Of a stretch of 64,000 bases of DNA, positions 6,020-64,000 are shown in pieces. The notes beneath the pieces were generated by a model. That model had not been told where the DNA came from. It saw only the letters and a list, made by a program, of their open reading frames with translations, and did not search any database. The position numbers and the translations under genes were made by a program. Position 1 is the first letter of the stretch, and every line of letters begins with the position of its first letter. This DNA is from Aureimonas sp. Leaf427 (GTDB lineage: Bacteria > Pseudomonadota > Alphaproteobacteria > Rhizobiales > Rhizobiaceae), in contig NZ_LMQW01000003.1 in the NCBI RefSeq assembly GCF_001425485.1, positions 1 to 64,000 of the forward strand, written 5' to 3'.

Positions 6020-6808
6020 ATGGAAACGGCCCGGGCAATGGAAAAGCTTCTCGTCCCGCTGGAGGACGCCGTTCCGAGCGGCCATAAGTTCAGCCCGATC
6101 GGCAATGTCTCGCGCCTTCAGGGCGAACGCGTGCATGTCCACATCGCGGTCGAGATCGGCCAGCGGATCGTGCGGGGCGAGTACCCGCCGGGCTCGATCC
6201 TCCCCAACGAGGCCAAGTGGGCCGAAATCTTCAAGGTCAGCCGGTCCGCGGTGCGCGAGGCGGTGAAGATGCTGACGGCCAAAAGCCTCCTCGCATCGCG
6301 GCCGAAGATCGGCAGCCGCGTCGAACCGCGCGCGCGCTGGAACCTGCTCGATCGCGACGTGCTCGACTGGTACTCCGCGGTGCCCGACAGTGCCCGCTTC
6401 CTCGCCCAGGTGCAGGAGTTCCGCCATTTCGTGGAGCCGGAGGCGGCGGCGCTCGCCGCGACGCGCCGGAGCGAGGCGCAGATGGCCGATATGTCTCTCG
6501 CCTGCCGCGAGATGAAAGCGGCCCCATCGCGGGACATCTGGATGGAGGCCGACATCCGCTTCCATCTCGCCATTCTCGCGGGCTCGGGGAACGACCTTCT
6601 CCTGCCGCTCGGCGTCATCGTGGACTCGGCCCTGCGCCAGCTGTTCCTGTTTCTCTATCCGAGCGACGTCGATTTGGGGAAGGTCACCGCCTTGCACGCA
6701 TCGGTCGAGCGCGCCATCCGTCTCCAGCGGCCGGACGCGGCGCGCAAGGCCATGCGCCAGTTGCTCGACTACACGGACGCGGCCATCGCCCGCAAACTGC
6801 GCGGCTGA
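6020..6808 (+). CDS. FadR-subfamily GntR transcriptional regulator
   Basis: A 262-residue regulator with an N-terminal winged helix (about residues 30-100; recognition region SRSAVREAVKMLTAKSLL) and a C-terminal all-helical FCD effector domain (about 120-255). Its metal-binding pattern is visible as D..R.H in the ADIRFHLAIL region and a later His in LHASVERAI. FCD regulators typically bind sugar acids or other carboxylates. It lies just upstream of, and in the same direction as, the dehydratase and GMC genes, so it most likely controls them. Three in-frame Mets are close together; the ATG of METARAM is used, with MEKLL six codons later equally possible because neither has a clear ribosome-binding sequence. 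Confidence 0.85.
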   Translation: METARAMEKLLVPLEDAVPSGHKFSPIGNVSRLQGERVHVHIAVEIGQRIVRGEYPPGSILPNEAKWAEIFKVSRSAVREAVKMLTAKSLLASRPKIGSRVEPRARWNLLDRDVLDWYSAVPDSARFLAQVQEFRHFVEPEAAALAATRRSEAQMADMSLACREMKAAPSRDIWMEADIRFHLAILAGSGNDLLLPLGVIVDSALRQLFLFLYPSDVDLGKVTALHASVERAIRLQRPDAARKAMRQLLDYTDAAIARKLRG

Positions 6809-6911
6809 TCGCCTTCATCGCGAATGCCCGGTCGGGCGTCGCTTTCAGGCTGGCGACGGGCGGAAGCTTGGGGCGAAATCGCGCCATCGCCTCCGACCAA
6901 GGCCGCGCCCC

Positions 6912-8132
6912 ATGAAGATCGCATCGCTCGACATTCATGTCGTCGCCGTCCCGCCGCCTCATCTGGGCGGCATGTACTGGATTCTCGTCCGGCTCCACAC
7001 GGCCTGCGGCATCGAGGGCGTCGGCGAAATCTACGCGACGGCCTTTCACCCGGACGCCCTGAAGCCCGCGATCGCGGACGTCTTCGAGCGCCATCTCCTC
7101 GGCCACGACCCCCACGACATCGAGCGCTTCTGGCGCGCGGCCTATTCGAGCGGCTTCACCCAGCGCCCCGATCCCACCATGATGGGCATCGTCTCCGGCC
7201 TGGAGATCGCCTGCTGGGACATCGTCGGCAAGGCGGCGGGCAAGCCGGTCCACGCGCTGATCGGCGGGCTGGTCCACGAGCGCCTGCGCGCCTACACCTA
7301 CCTCTATCCGAAGAACGCGGCCGGCGAATACGACTACGACGATCCCGATCTCGCCGCCTCCTGCGCGAGCGACATGGTCGAGCGCCTCGGCTTCACGGCC
7401 GTCAAGTTCGATCCGGCCGGCCCCTACACCGCCTATTCCGGCCACCATCTGTCGCTCGGCGTGATGGACCGTTGCGAGACCTTCTGCGCGAGGGTTCGCG
7501 AGGCCGTCGGCTCGCGCGCCGATCTTCTCTTCGGCACGCATGGGCAGATGGTTCCGGCCTCCGCGATCAGGCTCGCCAAGCGGCTGGAGAAATACGATCC
7601 GCTCTGGCTGGAGGAGCCGGTGCCGCCGGGCCAGGAAGAGGCGATGGGCCGCGTCGCCGCCAAGACCACGATTCCCGTCTCGACCGGCGAGCGGCTGACG
7701 ACCAAATACGAGTTCCAGCGCGTGCTGCAGACGGGCGCCGCCTCGATTCTCCAGATGAACGTCGCCCGCGTCGGCGGCATTCTCGAAGCCAAGAAGATCG
7801 CCGGCATGGCGGAGGCCTTCTATGCCGAGATCGCCCCGCATCTCTACAACGGCCCGGTGGGCGCGGCCGCCTCGATCCAGCTCTCCGCCGCCTCGCCGAA
7901 CTTCCTCATCCACGAGGCCATCATGGATTTTTCCGGCTTCCATGCGGAGATCCTGAAAACCCCGCTCGTCTTCGAGGACGGCTATCTCATTCCCTCGAAG
8001 GAGCCCGGCCTCGGCATCGAGCTCGATCTCGACGCCATCGCGCGCCACAGCCCCTATACGGGCGAGCGGCTGCATCTCCAGATGGCGCCGAACCCCGCCG
8101 ACGTCAAAGACTTCGCGCCGGCCAAGGGCTGA
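6912..8132 (+). CDS. Mandelate racemase/galactonate dehydratase-like enolase-superfamily enzyme
   Basis: A 406-residue member of the enolase superfamily, predicted to dehydrate or epimerise a sugar acid. The N-terminal capping domain (about 1-120) is followed by the TIM barrel. Visible active-site elements are VKFD (165-167), FGTHGQ (207-211, His210), LEEP (Glu234), STGER (Glu260) and APHLYNG (His310, the mandelate-racemase-type base). The first metal ligand, usually Asp two residues before His210, is Gly here, as in a GTHGQ subgroup. It follows the GntR gene and is 5 nt from the GMC gene, so the two are co-expressed. The substrate is not readable; context suggests an aldonate. Confidence 0.85.
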   Translation: MKIASLDIHVVAVPPPHLGGMYWILVRLHTACGIEGVGEIYATAFHPDALKPAIADVFERHLLGHDPHDIERFWRAAYSSGFTQRPDPTMMGIVSGLEIACWDIVGKAAGKPVHALIGGLVHERLRAYTYLYPKNAAGEYDYDDPDLAASCASDMVERLGFTAVKFDPAGPYTAYSGHHLSLGVMDRCETFCARVREAVGSRADLLFGTHGQMVPASAIRLAKRLEKYDPLWLEEPVPPGQEEAMGRVAAKTTIPVSTGERLTTKYEFQRVLQTGAASILQMNVARVGGILEAKKIAGMAEAFYAEIAPHLYNGPVGAAASIQLSAASPNFLIHEAIMDFSGFHAEILKTPLVFEDGYLIPSKEPGLGIELDLDAIARHSPYTGERLHLQMAPNPADVKDFAPAKG

Positions 8133-8137
8133 GACGC

Positions 8138-9781
8138 ATGGTTGGCGACGGCGACGAGACCTTCGATTACGTCGTGGTCGGCTCCGGCTCGGCCGGCTCG
8201 ATCGTCGCCGCGCGCCTCGGCGAGGACGGGCGGAACAGCGTCTGCGTGATCGAGGCCGGCGGAAACGACCGCTCGATCTGGCTGAAGATCCCCGTCGGCT
8301 ATGCCAAGAGCTACTACGATCCCGCCGTGAACTGGATGTATTCGACCGAACCCGAGCCCGAACTCGGCGGACGGCGCATCTACACGCCGCGCGGCAAGGT
8401 GCAGGGCGGCTCCGGCGCGATCAACGCCATGATCTTCGTGCGCGGCGCCGCCGGCGACTTCGACGGATGGCGCGATGCCGGAAACCCCGGCTGGGGCTTT
8501 GCCGACGTGCTGCCGCACTTCAAGCGGATGGAGCGCCATGCCGGCGGGGCCTCGCCGTGGCATGGCGGCGACGGGCCGATCGGCGTGACGCCGATGCGCG
8601 GCGCGACGCATCCGATCACGGACGCCTTCCTGGCCGCCTGCCGCGAGATCCAGCTTCCCGAGACGCCCGACTTCAACGGCGCCGCCATCGAGGGCGCCGG
8701 CATCTACGACGTGAACACGCGCCGGGGCCTTCGCTCCTCCGCCGGCGCCGAGTATCTGCGCCCCGCCCTGAAGCGCGAGAACGTCACGATCCGGCGTCAC
8801 GCCCGGACGACGCGCATCCTCCTCGACGACGAGCATCGCGCGACCGGCGTCGAGATCCTGCAAGGGGGCCAGAGGCGCACGATTCGCGCGCGATGCGAGG
8901 TGATCGTCTCGGCCGGCGCCGTCGAGACGCCGAAGCTGCTCCAGCTGTCCGGCATCGGCGACGGCGCGCTGCTCGGACGGCTCGGCATCGCGCCGCGCCG
9001 TCATCTGCCCGCCGTCGGCGCGAACCTGCAGGACCATCTCTGCGCCAGCCTCTATTACCGCTCGACCGTGCCGACGCTGAACGGACCCTTCTCCAGCCTC
9101 GCCGGCCAGGCCGGGCTCGCGCTTCGCTACATCCTGACCCGCAAGGGGCCCTTCGCGATAAGCGTGAACCAGGCCGGCGGGTTTTTTCGCGGCCGGCCGT
9201 CCGAGCCGCGCGAGAACCTGCAGCTCTACTTCAACCCCCTCTCCTACCGCATTCCGAGCGATCCAGGCGCGGGACTGAAGGCCGAGCCCTATCCGGGCTT
9301 TCTCCTCGCCTTCAACGCCTGCCGCCCGACGAGCCGCGGCCGGGTGGAGATCGCCTCGCCCGATGCGGAAGGCGCGCCCCGGATCCGGCCGAACTATCTC
9401 TCGACGGAGGAGGACCGCGACGAAGCGGTGCAGGGCGCCCGCCTTGCCCGGCGCATCATGCAGGCGCCCGCCCTTCGCGCCGTCACCGCCGAGGAAATGC
9501 CGCCCTCGGCGGGTGTCTCGACCGACGACGAGATCCTCGCCTATTTTCGGGAGAATTGCGGCTCGATCTATCATCTCTGCGGCACGGCCGGCATGGGGCC
9601 GGACCCTGCGACCTCCGTCGTCGATGCCCGCCTTCGCGTCCACGGGATCGCCGGCCTTCGCGTCGTCGACGCCTCGATCTTTCCCACCATCACCGCCGGA
9701 AACATCAACGCGCCCACCATGATGGTGGCCGAGAAGGGCGCGGCGACGATCCTTGAGGATGCGGCGGCGCGTCAGCGGTAG
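8138..9781 (+). CDS. GMC-family FAD-dependent oxidoreductase
   Basis: A 547-residue flavoprotein of the glucose-methanol-choline family, oxidising a primary or secondary alcohol. The N-terminus has the FAD Rossmann motif GSGSAGS (15-21). GKVQGGSGAINAM is GMC signature 1, SAGAVETPKLLQLSGIG is signature 2, and the C-terminus has the catalytic His in IYHLCGT (about His479) and the partner Asn in GNINAPT (about 522-524). The open frame extends far upstream, but the ATG used lies 5 nt past the dehydratase stop with an AAGGG ribosome-binding sequence. It ends in a 10-bp convergent overlap with otnI. Its role in the acid-sugar pathway is inferred from position. Confidence 0.9.
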   Translation: MVGDGDETFDYVVVGSGSAGSIVAARLGEDGRNSVCVIEAGGNDRSIWLKIPVGYAKSYYDPAVNWMYSTEPEPELGGRRIYTPRGKVQGGSGAINAMIFVRGAAGDFDGWRDAGNPGWGFADVLPHFKRMERHAGGASPWHGGDGPIGVTPMRGATHPITDAFLAACREIQLPETPDFNGAAIEGAGIYDVNTRRGLRSSAGAEYLRPALKRENVTIRRHARTTRILLDDEHRATGVEILQGGQRRTIRARCEVIVSAGAVETPKLLQLSGIGDGALLGRLGIAPRRHLPAVGANLQDHLCASLYYRSTVPTLNGPFSSLAGQAGLALRYILTRKGPFAISVNQAGGFFRGRPSEPRENLQLYFNPLSYRIPSDPGAGLKAEPYPGFLLAFNACRPTSRGRVEIASPDAEGAPRIRPNYLSTEEDRDEAVQGARLARRIMQAPALRAVTAEEMPPSAGVSTDDEILAYFRENCGSIYHLCGTAGMGPDPATSVVDARLRVHGIAGLRVVDASIFPTITAGNINAPTMMVAEKGAATILEDAAARQR

Positions 9782-61039: not shown

Positions 61040-61115
61040 GCCGCTTTAGCTCAGTTGGTAGAGCACGTCATTCGTAATGACGGGGTCAGGTGTTCGAGTC
61101 ACCTAAGCGGCACCA
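61040..61115 (+). tRNA. tRNA-Thr (anticodon CGT)
   Basis: A complete cloverleaf of 76 nt including an encoded CCA. The acceptor stem is GCCGCTT/AAGCGGC, the D-arm has TAGCTCAGTTGGTAGAGC, the anticodon stem CGTCA/TGACG encloses TTCGTAA with CGT at 61073-61075, and the T-arm is AGGTG-TTCGAGT-CACCT. It reads ACG codons. The discriminator base is A. Confidence 0.97.
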
Positions 61116-61170: not shown

Positions 61171-61581
61171 CGTTTGCGGACACTTGCGGGCTGGACGCTT
61201 ACCCTCCTCAGCATTTTTCTTCCCCGCCTGAACGACGACGTCCGCCGGATAAATCCGGGCGCCGACAGCCGCTTTTTTCTGATCGAGACGAGGCGTCGAC
61301 GGCGCCGGAGGCGGGGCCGCTTTCCCCTGCCCTATAGGGGCTGCGCCATTTCTTCGAGGCCGGTCACGGGGCCGCCCTTCTGTTCGCCCGAGACCGGGGA
61401 GAGATTTCGCCCGCCCCCGGCCGAGCGGGACCGAGCCCGCCTCGACAGGTTCGGATAAGGGTTGACCGCCAGACTCCCGAGACGGTAAGCGTTAATTATA
61501 TTCATTGCTTAGCTAACGATCGCCTTGAAATGTCCTAGAGTTAGCCAACCCAGCTGAGCGACAACGGGGAGAGTGGGCAAA
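61171..61581. other. Lower-GC intergenic region upstream of the glycosidase gene
   Basis: About 410 bp without a convincing gene; a plus-strand frame of 122 codons crosses the terminator and has no ribosome-binding sequence. The last 100 bp are the most AT-rich in the window (GTTAATTATATTCATTGC around 61491-61508). TTGACC at 61462-61467 could be a -35. GCTAAC (61512-61517 region) and GTTAGC (61540-61545 region) form an inverted pair about 45-70 nt before the start codon. The promoter of the large repeat protein must lie here. Confidence 0.4.
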
Positions 61582-64000
61582 ATGCCTCTTCAGAACGCTG
61601 TGCGCGTGTCCGATCTGATCGACACGATGGGGGTCGCAACCCATATCGACTACACCGACGGCCAGTACCGCGACATCGACGCCGACATCGCCGCGCTGAA
61701 GTTTCTCGGGATCAACCATGTCCGCGACGCCGCGCCCAATCCGGCCTCAGACGCGTTCGGCCAGGGGCATCTCGCCGATGCCGCCAAGGCGGGCCTGAAG
61801 TTCACCTTCGTCGTTCAGGGCAATGTCGATCCCGAGGTCGTCGTCGGCCGCCTCCACCAGTTCGCCGCCGCCCATCCGGGCGCCATCACCGGCATCGAGG
61901 GGCCGAACGAGGTCAACAACTGGCCCGTGACCTATCGCGGACTGACCGGCACGGCGGGCGCCCAGGCCTATCAGGCGGCCCTCTTCGACGCGGTCAATGC
62001 CGATCCTCTCCTGAAGAACATCCCCGTTCTCGGCTTCACCGACTACCCGGTCCATGCGTCCGATTCGGACTGGAACAACATCCATCCCTATCCCAAGAAC
62101 GGCGACCAGCCGCGCGACACGGTCGTGGCGGAAGCCAAGGCGCAAGCGGCGATCGATCCCGGCAAGGGCTTCGCGATCACCGAGGGCGGCTACCACACCT
62201 CGCTCAGCGCGGACCGGAACGGCGGCTGGGAGGGCGTCGACGAAGCCACCCAGGCCAAGCTGACCCTCAACATGTACATGGACGCGGCCCAGCAGGGCTC
62301 CAAGATCACCAATCTCTACCAGCTGCTCGACGCCTATCCCGACCACAAGGGCGGCGGCGACCAGGAAAGCCATTTCGGCATGTTCCGGCTGGACGGCTCG
62401 GCCAAGCCCGTCGCGACGGCCATCCACAATTTCACGACGATCCTGCGCGATGCCGGCGGCAGCGCCGGCGGCTTCAAGGCGGGCTCGCTGGACTATTCCG
62501 TCAGCGGCCTGCCGAGCACAGGGCACACCTATCTCATGCAGAAGTCGGATGCCTCCTTCCAGATCATCGCCTGGAACGAGCCGGACATCTGGGACCAGGC
62601 CGCCAACCGCGCGATCGCGGCCCCGACGAGCACCGTCACCGTCAGCCTCGGCAAGACGTTCGAGACCGTGCAGGTCTTCGATCCGCTGAAGGGCACCGGA
62701 GCCATCCAGACGCTCCACAACGTCTCGTCCGTCCAGCTCGGCCTGACCGATCACCCGCTGGTGCTTCAGGTGTCCGGGGCCACGGGCGTCCAGACGCCTC
62801 CGACCGTTCCCGTCACCCCGGCTCCGACACCGACGCCAACGCCGCCCCCGACGACGACGCCCAAACCCGTCGACACGACCATCGGCACGGGACCGGACAA
62901 GCTGGTTTTGAAGATCAGCGAGGACGCTCACAAGGGCGACGCGCAGTTCACCATCTCGGTCGACGGCAAGCAGGTCGGCGGCGTTCTCACCGCCCATGCC
63001 TCGCACGCCGCCAAGCAGTCCGACACGATCACCGTCAACGGCAACTGGGCGCCCGGCGACCACAAGGTCACCGTCAACTTCCTCAACGACTATTCCGAGG
63101 GCAGCACCAAGACGGACCGCAACCTCTACGTCGACGGCGCCACCTACAACGGCAAGGCCATCGCCGGCAGCGAGATCGCGTTGAAGGTCGGCGGCCCCCA
63201 GAACTTCACCCTGCGCGACACGGCAGCGCCCACGGCACCGACCACCCCGGCGCCGTCGCACACGACGATCGGGACAGGGCCGGACAAGCTGGTTCTGAAG
63301 ATCAGCGAGGACGCCTACAAGGGCGACGCGCAGTTCACCATTTCCGTCGACGGCAAGCAGATCGGCGGCGTTCTCACCGCCCATGCCTCGCACGCCGCCA
63401 AACAGTCCGACACGATCACCGTGAACGGCAACTGGGCGCCCGGCGACCATAAGGTCACCGTCAATTTCCTGAACGACGTCTATGACGGCGCGGCCGGCAA
63501 GGACCGCAATCTCCATGTCGACGGCGCCACCTACAACGGCAAGGCCATAGCGGGCAGCGAGTTCTCGCTGAACAGCTCGGGCGCCAAGGACTTCACGCTG
63601 CGCGACACCGCGGAGGCGACGGCCCCGGCCACCCCGGCCACCCCGGCACCGTCGCCGTCGCCCGCCGGCACGACCATCGGCACGGGGCCGGACAAGCTGG
63701 TTCTGAAGATCAGCGAGGACGCCTACAAGGGCGATGCGCAGTTCACCATCTCCGTCGACGGCAAGCAGGTCGGAGGCGTGATGACGGCCCATGCCTCGCA
63801 TGCCGACAAGCAGTCCGACATCGTGACCGTGAACGGCAACTGGGCGCCCGGCGACCACAAGGTCAGCATCAACTTCCTGAACGACGCCTATGACGGCACC
63901 GTCAAGACCGACCGCAATCTCTATGTCGACGGCGCCACCTATAACGGCAAGGCGATAGCGGGCAGCGAGTTCTCGCTGAACAGCGCGGGCGCCAAGGATT
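61582..64000 (+). CDS. Glycosidase-like protein with tandem CBM60-like modules (3' end outside window)
   Basis: An open frame of at least 806 codons. Residues 1-390 look like a GH-A clan TIM barrel: TGIEGPNEVNNW (acid/base Glu110) and FAITEGGYHTS (nucleophile Glu201). Three modules of about 115 residues follow (starting near 433, 562 and 698), each beginning TIGTGPDKLVLKISEDA and containing SVDGKQ, VNGNWAPGDHKV, FLND and DRNLYVDGATYNG, matching Ca-dependent CBM60-like modules, joined by Pro/Thr linkers. No Sec signal peptide is seen, so type I secretion is plausible. GGGGAGAG lies just before the ATG. Confidence 0.8.
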   Translation, partial: MPLQNAVRVSDLIDTMGVATHIDYTDGQYRDIDADIAALKFLGINHVRDAAPNPASDAFGQGHLADAAKAGLKFTFVVQGNVDPEVVVGRLHQFAAAHPGAITGIEGPNEVNNWPVTYRGLTGTAGAQAYQAALFDAVNADPLLKNIPVLGFTDYPVHASDSDWNNIHPYPKNGDQPRDTVVAEAKAQAAIDPGKGFAITEGGYHTSLSADRNGGWEGVDEATQAKLTLNMYMDAAQQGSKITNLYQLLDAYPDHKGGGDQESHFGMFRLDGSAKPVATAIHNFTTILRDAGGSAGGFKAGSLDYSVSGLPSTGHTYLMQKSDASFQIIAWNEPDIWDQAANRAIAAPTSTVTVSLGKTFETVQVFDPLKGTGAIQTLHNVSSVQLGLTDHPLVLQVSGATGVQTPPTVPVTPAPTPTPTPPPTTTPKPVDTTIGTGPDKLVLKISEDAHKGDAQFTISVDGKQVGGVLTAHASHAAKQSDTITVNGNWAPGDHKVTVNFLNDYSEGSTKTDRNLYVDGATYNGKAIAGSEIALKVGGPQNFTLRDTAAPTAPTTPAPSHTTIGTGPDKLVLKISEDAYKGDAQFTISVDGKQIGGVLTAHASHAAKQSDTITVNGNWAPGDHKVTVNFLNDVYDGAAGKDRNLHVDGATYNGKAIAGSEFSLNSSGAKDFTLRDTAEATAPATPATPAPSPSPAGTTIGTGPDKLVLKISEDAYKGDAQFTISVDGKQVGGVMTAHASHADKQSDIVTVNGNWAPGDHKVSINFLNDAYDGTVKTDRNLYVDGATYNGKAIAGSEFSLNSAGAKD
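62878..64000 (+). repeat. Tandem repeat units coding for CBM60-like modules
   Basis: Units begin at about 62878, 63265 and 63673 (spacing 387 and 408 bp, the difference lying in the linkers). The DNA is very similar between units two and three, including shared synonymous codons over long stretches, which points to recent duplication or gene conversion. The third unit runs off the window, so the true copy number is unknown. Confidence 0.85.

Follow-up and report, generated by a model that had tools for sequence, protein, structure and literature searches.

A signal-less PslG-like glycosidase with a tandem CBM60 array in Aureimonas sp. Leaf427, a predicted substrate of type I secretion

How might a glycosidase that carries neither a signal peptide nor RTX repeats leave the cell, and on which glycan would it then act? 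The question is raised by a gene at the end of the window, by which we mean the whole 64,000-nucleotide stretch of Aureimonas sp. Leaf427 contig NZ_LMQW01000003.1 analyzed here (G000:C3:1-64000 in our numbering). The gene encodes an N-terminal glycoside hydrolase (GH) domain (residues 1-400), a Pro/Thr-rich linker and four carbohydrate-binding modules of family CBM60, 946 amino acids counted from the ATG, and its frame runs 422 bases past the window edge. The ATG at 61582 is the best start; an alternative GTG at 61573 is possible and would make the protein three residues longer. We read the product as an extracellular PslG-like glycosidase acting on the organism's own or a similar exopolysaccharide and exported by a PrtD-type type I secretion system (T1SS), with a CBM60 array instead of RTX repeats, a reading to which we give a probability of about 0.66.

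An AlphaFold2 model of the GH domain (pLDDT 93.1, pTM 0.93) consists of a barrel and a beta-sandwich, and its first Foldseek match was PslG (E = 1.1e-20, TM 0.68/0.66). A second structural comparison aligned 345 residues with PslG (Z = 29.9) at a root-mean-square deviation of 3.5 Å. PslG of Pseudomonas aeruginosa (PDB 4zn2, 5bx9, 9g17) shares the barrel and beta-sandwich fold and a TE.G motif and, like a signal-peptide paralogue of the window gene described below, is a glycosidase encoded in a gene cluster for an exopolysaccharide; it differs in sequence (17% identity), and the window protein has four CBM60 modules and no signal peptide. Passages of PMC9075953 give E165 and E276 as the key residues of PslG and place the protein at the inner membrane and in the periplasm.

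An alignment of 30 GH sequences, from which one homologue in a split gene (G034) was left out, contained 15 invariant columns, among them R48, E110, H168, Y170, E201 and Y246. By sequence, E201 aligned to the TEWG of PslG and E110 was not aligned to PslG. A profile built from the 30 rows matched PslG over profile positions 170-286 only, with the TE.G motif aligned, while a five-row GH profile searched against the PDB returned weak rows only, with PslG at 0.053. The Pfam search assigned no GH family to the domain at E ≤ 1, and a direct sequence search of the PDB with the full protein produced no match. Weak Pfam and NCBIfam rows were set aside; four of them (CE2_N, DUF5783, 4HBT_3 and Coa1) were nominally over the Pfam cut-off with no stretch passing individually. 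We place the GH domain with the Glu/Glu barrel glycosidases and name it PslG-like and not a member of GH39. PslG is the nearest Glu/Glu barrel glycosidase with a known exopolysaccharide role, which the sequence alone does not single out.

The protein matched PF16841 (CBM60) at 198.5 bits (cut-off 28.2, E = 2e-59) in four stretches of 53.5-61.1 bits each, three of them inside the window, and a profile scan found no CBM60 in this genome beyond these four. In a model of module 4 (pLDDT 93.5), the last strand ends 4 residues before the C-terminus of the protein. The second structural comparison matched this model to vCBM60 (2xfd, Z = 10.5; 2xhh, Z = 10.0; next row 6.9); Foldseek gave no row for it at E ≤ 0.001, and the CBM60 profile found nothing credible among PDB sequences, where two GTPase rows appeared at E = 0.81 and 0.98. 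Binding by CBM60 is calcium-dependent according to the Pfam description and the title of 2xhh.

An earlier note, made from the letters of the window, had proposed a GH-A-like N-terminal barrel, CBM60-like modules and the absence of a Sec signal, all of which are borne out by the model, the profile and module matches, and the N-terminal analysis below. Its further claim of near-identical, expanding repeats, the final two in view being almost the same in their DNA, was overstated. Over 300 nt, DNA identity was 88.7% between units 2 and 3, 88.7% between units 1 and 2, 87.7% between units 1 and 3, and 80.0-82.7% between unit 4 and units 1-3. Since the units are only 80-89% identical and their differences pile up at third codon positions (7, 7 and 20 at the three positions for units 2-3), the array looks like a settled older duplication under purifying selection; recent expansion is ruled out by the same figures.

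Among nine complete GH-CBM60 proteins, module number varied, with one module in five, two in two and four in two. Single modules occur in Lichenicoccus roseus (L147), Siccirubricoccus soli (L180), Methylobacterium J-088 (L135) and Roseomonas mucosa HV2, and two modules in Lichenibacterium ramalinae (L166) and R. mucosa AD1; Siccirubricoccus phaeus (L155) has neighboring genes with one and four, and the window protein has four. This set leaves out L137 (at least two modules, 3' end cut) and a further frame in L180, which stops within its module. Such variation would suit a matrix-anchoring protein in which GH activity is minor or lost and the array cross-links or tethers the matrix with a strength set by module number. 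We consider this improbable, because the six residues named above, the two presumed catalytic glutamates among them, do not vary in any of the 30 rows, which argues for maintained catalysis.

With a catalytic domain and a glycan-binding tail in place, the route out of the cell becomes the central question. Only five codons separate the GTG at 61573 from the in-frame upstream stop, so no upstream signal peptide is possible in frame. The greatest 12-residue hydropathy near the N-terminus was 1.35, compared to 2.02-2.98 in nine controls, proteins whose signal peptides were recognized by eye. A hydrophobic N-terminal stretch was present in the paralogue on contig C23, in L096 and in five PslG-like proteins, and possibly in L082, L083 and L099.

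Relatives of the GH domain carry a range of tails. The homologue in a congener (G001) is 71% identical over the GH domain, lacks a signal peptide, and has an RTX tail (PF00353) ending in DFWII. In G014 the GH domain is followed by RTX, as judged by eye, and the G007 protein, from a genome of the same family, has an acidic tail of low complexity. Homologues from a different family within the order continue with about 700-1000 residues of repeats, and most of them end in DFMFV, DFVFV, NFLFV and similar sequences; a Pfam search with one of these proteins found no match. GH homologues of about 1135-1470 amino acids with long repeat tails and mostly T1SS-like ends were seen at L081 and L085-L093. 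The G034 homologue, with GH and an RTX-like part (L095:7826-10107), is split into two overlapping frames in an assembly of 1890 contigs and could reflect an assembly error. Across the order, CBM60 was found in 22 of 397 genomes (17 over the cut-off) and the GH profile in 20 of 397; class-wide, the 30-row GH profile matched 4 of 385 genomes, the source genome included. One of five congeners searched has the GH domain, with RTX; one of the four without it is only 65% complete. Three further genomes (G147:C296, G070:C60 and G291:C36; L105, L106 and L027) encode proteins with two or three C-terminal CBM60 modules and no RTX by eye; these proteins resemble propellers of the sorbosone-dehydrogenase type.

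Type I secretion genes lie beside relatives of both parts of the protein. The source genome itself encodes five PrtD proteins over the curated cut-off. Immediately after the G007 gene for the GH protein (L098:8492-10555, minus strand) comes PrtD (6475-8460), and in a PrtD tree, from which we relied on this grouping alone, the G007 PrtD groups with the PrtD on contig C1 of the source genome (G000:C1) with support of 100/99, both on long branches. A GH-CBM60 gene in Methylobacterium J-088 (L135), 55% identical in its GH domain, is followed by PrtD-HlyD, and a CBM60 and DUF5648 protein in G306 is followed by PrtD. Contig C1 also encodes a putative T1SS substrate ending in HFLFV (L111:15600-17999, sequence includes X), which lies near PrtD-HlyD, UDP-glucose dehydrogenase and ManC-like genes.

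A wider sample was drawn by searching a seven-module CBM60 alignment against named genomes, where the best 80 of 108 relatives fell in 78 loci; the sample is thus biased to this CBM60 type. These loci contain 85 CBM60 open reading frames (ORFs). Forty have a terminal CBM60, within 45 residues of the C-terminus, and fewer than three GGxGxD motifs, making them RTX-less; 35 have fewer than three motifs and another C-terminus, four have at least three, and six are truncated at the 3' end. The 5' end is missing from ten of the 85, where an upstream RTX block or signal could be overlooked; among the remaining 75, three reached a hydropathy of 2.0 close to where the stop-to-stop frame begins, and by eye the hydrophobic stretch in L147 and L157 precedes the likelier start. 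PrtD, counted at more than 35% identity to the C2 copy of the source genome, occurred in 15 of the 78 loci, each time with an HlyD-like neighbor, compared to 0.30 expected from 39 PrtD over the cut-off in 20 host genomes (134.6 Mb) chosen from the 78 loci. The corresponding Poisson value, 7e-21, ignores the relatedness of the loci.

Seven of the PrtD loci are from Methylobacterium and encode an uncharacterized N-terminal domain with CBM60 (L133 cut at the 5' end), and two more from that genus are of the window GH type (L135, which is complete, and L154, which is truncated and was assigned from its tail). The others, four Rhizobium-like and two Bosea-like, encode GH16-CBM60 proteins, with GH16 assigned by Pfam for L146 only and by eye for the rest. 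These GH16-CBM60 proteins (e.g., L146, L167) resemble the window protein in being signal-less, in the type of their C-terminal CBM60, in the absence of RTX and in lying near PrtD-HlyD; they differ in their GH16-like catalytic domain and in having 1-2 modules in the six loci. Six Methylobacterium loci (L127, L148, L158, L164, L165 and L168) have a conserved layout in which a protein with the uncharacterized N-terminal domain, a single C-terminal CBM60 and the end FTFHDYLV is directly followed by PrtD and HlyD.

The C-terminus offers a further view of export. Passages of PMC8861453 describe a tendency of RTX proteins to end in [FLI][VAI]. The window protein ends in LHDDGLA, the last two residues of which (LA) fit. 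Such ends were found in 17 of 39 terminal-CBM60 RTX-less proteins (of the 40, one with its frame broken inside the module was dropped), in 21 of 35 other ORFs and in 11 of the 25 GH-profile ORFs listed. Within the proteins the dipeptide occurs at a frequency of 0.025, with 0.032 expected by composition. Seven of the 17 matching ends are the related FTFHDYLV. The 14 GH-profile ORFs that do not fit comprise five PslG-like proteins with signal peptides, L096, one piece of a split gene, and seven that are signal-less or uncertain.

Several observations weigh against our reading, first of all as to export. The full 946-amino-acid protein has no match to RTX repeats (PF00353), no secretion genes were found beside the window gene, including past position 64000, and the nearest PrtD lies about 68 kb away. 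LHDDGLA as a whole resembles a T1SS signal only modestly, and 22 of the 39 terminal-CBM60 C-termini do not fit [FLI][VAI]. No PrtD above 35% identity was found in 63 of the 78 loci, in examined stretches some of which are short at contig ends (in L156, one of the 63, there is an ABC protein of 28% identity), and the 15 PrtD loci amount to about four arrangements in three lineages and so are not 15 independent events. No synteny with the G001 homologue was seen in the 19 kb examined. The absence of RTX and of a linked T1SS, together with the weak C-terminal signal, would fit a protein that is not exported at all, remaining cytoplasmic or being released by lysis or in vesicles, with a tail that lost the export signal kept by its RTX relatives. 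This seems very improbable, since the terminal-CBM60, RTX-less design is found in 40 of 85 ORFs and also beside PrtD-HlyD, which indicates that the missing RTX is not simply decay; moreover, the frame is open and the differences between modules are mostly at third positions.

Linkage of a type I substrate gene to genes for the ATP-binding cassette (ABC) and membrane fusion proteins is common and not obligatory. Type I export of the window protein is a well-supported prediction by analogy with its relatives and not from its own locus. The earlier note had likewise suggested type I secretion through a C-terminal signal beyond the window; the route stands as the most likely one, while the RTX repeats and adjacent type I genes that it expected beyond 64000 were absent when the sequence was read on. 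Its suggestion of a self-acting exopolysaccharide hydrolase, which the PslG-like fold and the exopolysaccharide loci of the paralogue and relatives favor, remains the most likely role.

Those loci are as follows. The paralogue on C23 (39% identity) has a likely signal peptide and lies beside a flippase (PF13440), a glycosyltransferase of family GT2, a Wzc-like protein and a bacterial sugar transferase. The C23 locus contains two glycosidase-like genes with likely signal peptides (L006:9063-10439 and L006:2955-3959), the GH paralogue and a Glyco_hydro_cc protein (PF11790). In another genome of the order (L086), a signal-less GH gene and a signal-peptide PslG-like gene lie within one 19-kb stretch that also encodes PF13440, four group 1 glycosyltransferases, a pyruvyl transferase and an acyltransferase. 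On a plasmid of R. mucosa AD1 the GH-CBM60 gene is next to a glycosyltransferase and not far from a polysaccharide tyrosine autokinase; in R. mucosa HV2 it is not in such surroundings. The R. mucosa protein WP_323874281 ('carbohydrate-binding domain-containing protein') has the same GH domain and two CBM60 modules, no RTX and, by eye, no signal-like start, and is encoded beside a polysaccharide tyrosine autokinase and glycosyltransferases; it differs from the window protein in its sequence (about 35% identity) and in its plasmid exopolysaccharide locus.

As to the substrate, the points on the other side are that no exopolysaccharide genes were found next to the window gene except, 184 bp downstream, a polysaccharide deacetylase that probably has a signal peptide, that a Bacteroides GH39 (5jvk, Z = 29.3) tied with PslG in the structural comparison, the following rows beginning at Z = 24.0, so that PslG is not uniquely near, and that the best match of the 30-row profile was the pollen allergen CJP38 (E = 4.6e-7), just ahead of PslG (7.7e-7), followed by the GH39 (6e-6) and a GH17 enzyme (1.5e-5). 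PF16841, moreover, is named in Pfam for xylan binding, which makes a plant-glycan target conceivable. A T1SS-exported plant-cell-wall hydrolase, with the array on plant xylan and the GH domain cutting a plant polysaccharide, would agree with that name, with the match of the module model to 2xfd and 2xhh, and with the reach of the GH profile to plant GH17-type beta-1,3-glucanases close to the PslG score. Methylobacterium, Rhizobium and Bradyrhizobium, to which several CBM60 carriers belong, are plant- or soil-associated genera. We nevertheless regard a plant target as unlikely, as the nearest folds are PslG and GH39 and no xylanase, the paralogue and a number of relatives are encoded in exopolysaccharide loci, and relatives are present in human skin isolates of R. 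mucosa. An exopolysaccharide of the organism itself is a reasonable substrate to propose.

Known systems offer partial parallels for such an enzyme. ExsH, PlyA and PlyB of rhizobia are GH16 enzymes with repeat tails; they have another catalytic fold, and the window protein has a CBM60 array without RTX as its tail. They are alike in that they are exopolysaccharide glycanases exported by a PrtD-type system, PrsDE, as passages of PMC1403797 and PMC2275737 describe. The former also reports that in S. meliloti both ExoK and the PrsDE-secreted ExsH cut succinoglycan, a two-enzyme set that the window protein and its signal-peptide paralogue resemble, and the latter mentions two type I candidates of R. 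leguminosarum without a classical RTX domain. BapP and the Bap/RTX adhesins share calcium-binding beta-sandwich arrays in a putative T1SS substrate, according to passages of PMC12153261; BapP differs as an adhesin with cadherin-like and BIg domains, and those passages mention neither a glycosidase nor CBM60. Among the matches listed from open-licence papers, none linked CBM60 to type I secretion or dealt with CBM60 tails.

The features of the gene are collected in Table 1. A tRNA gene lies about 470 bp upstream, at 61040-61112 (Rfam tRNA, 69 bits), with an anticodon read by eye as CGT (Thr).

Table 1 Features of the GH-CBM60 gene; positions are those of the window unless given with C3
Feature	Position	Strand	Basis
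Protein-coding gene, GH + Pro/Thr linker + 4 CBM60	61582..64000 in window, stop at G000:C3:64422	+	
GGGGAGAG, likely ribosome-binding site, 8 nt ahead of ATG 61582	61566..61573	+	inferred on reading the sequence
PslG-like glycosidase domain, barrel with C-terminal beta-sandwich	61582..62781	+	
Glu110 codon (EGPNE), presumed acid/base	61909..61911	+	invariant in 30/30 aligned rows
Glu201 codon (TEGGY), presumed nucleophile	62182..62184	+	invariant in 30/30 rows; aligned with PslG TEWG
Pro/Thr-rich linker	62782..62874	+	sequence reading
CBM60 module 1, 104-aa core	62875..63186	+	
CBM60 module 2, 104-aa core	63262..63573	+	
CBM60 module 3, 104-aa core	63670..63981	+	
CBM60 module 4 core, beyond window	C3:64063-64374	+	

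Given the calcium dependence of CBM60, the role of RTX repeats as passages of PMC3034196 present it, and the exchange of tails among relatives, we hypothesize that the CBM60 modules do the calcium job of RTX. The glycosidase would leave the cell through one of the PrtD-type systems of the genome with its C-terminus leading, and the four modules would stay unfolded in the calcium-poor cytoplasm. Outside the cell they would bind calcium and fold, and the avidity of the folded array would then keep the enzyme on its glycan. We tentatively extend this to a distinct, RTX-free class of type I tails in Alphaproteobacteria, a possibility that we hold somewhat less probable than its opposite, in which tandem CBM60 modules stay unfolded in the cytoplasm, drive export by folding outside and then serve as a glycan anchor, while PslG-like GH, GH16 and other domains swap RTX and CBM60 tails.

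The same catalytic domain with an RTX tail in G001 and a CBM60 tail in the source genome constitutes a natural swap, which makes it testable whether a calcium-binding beta-sandwich other than RTX can act as the export ratchet. The window protein and its paralogue also add a version, in another fold, of two-enzyme exopolysaccharide trimming in which one enzyme has a signal peptide and one does not. If CBM60 arrays can replace RTX, a role as type I secreted matrix enzymes would be predicted for many CBM60 proteins that lack a signal peptide in Methylobacterium, Belnapia, Roseomonas and rhizobia, and searches based on RTX would miss this CBM60-tail class of exported enzymes.

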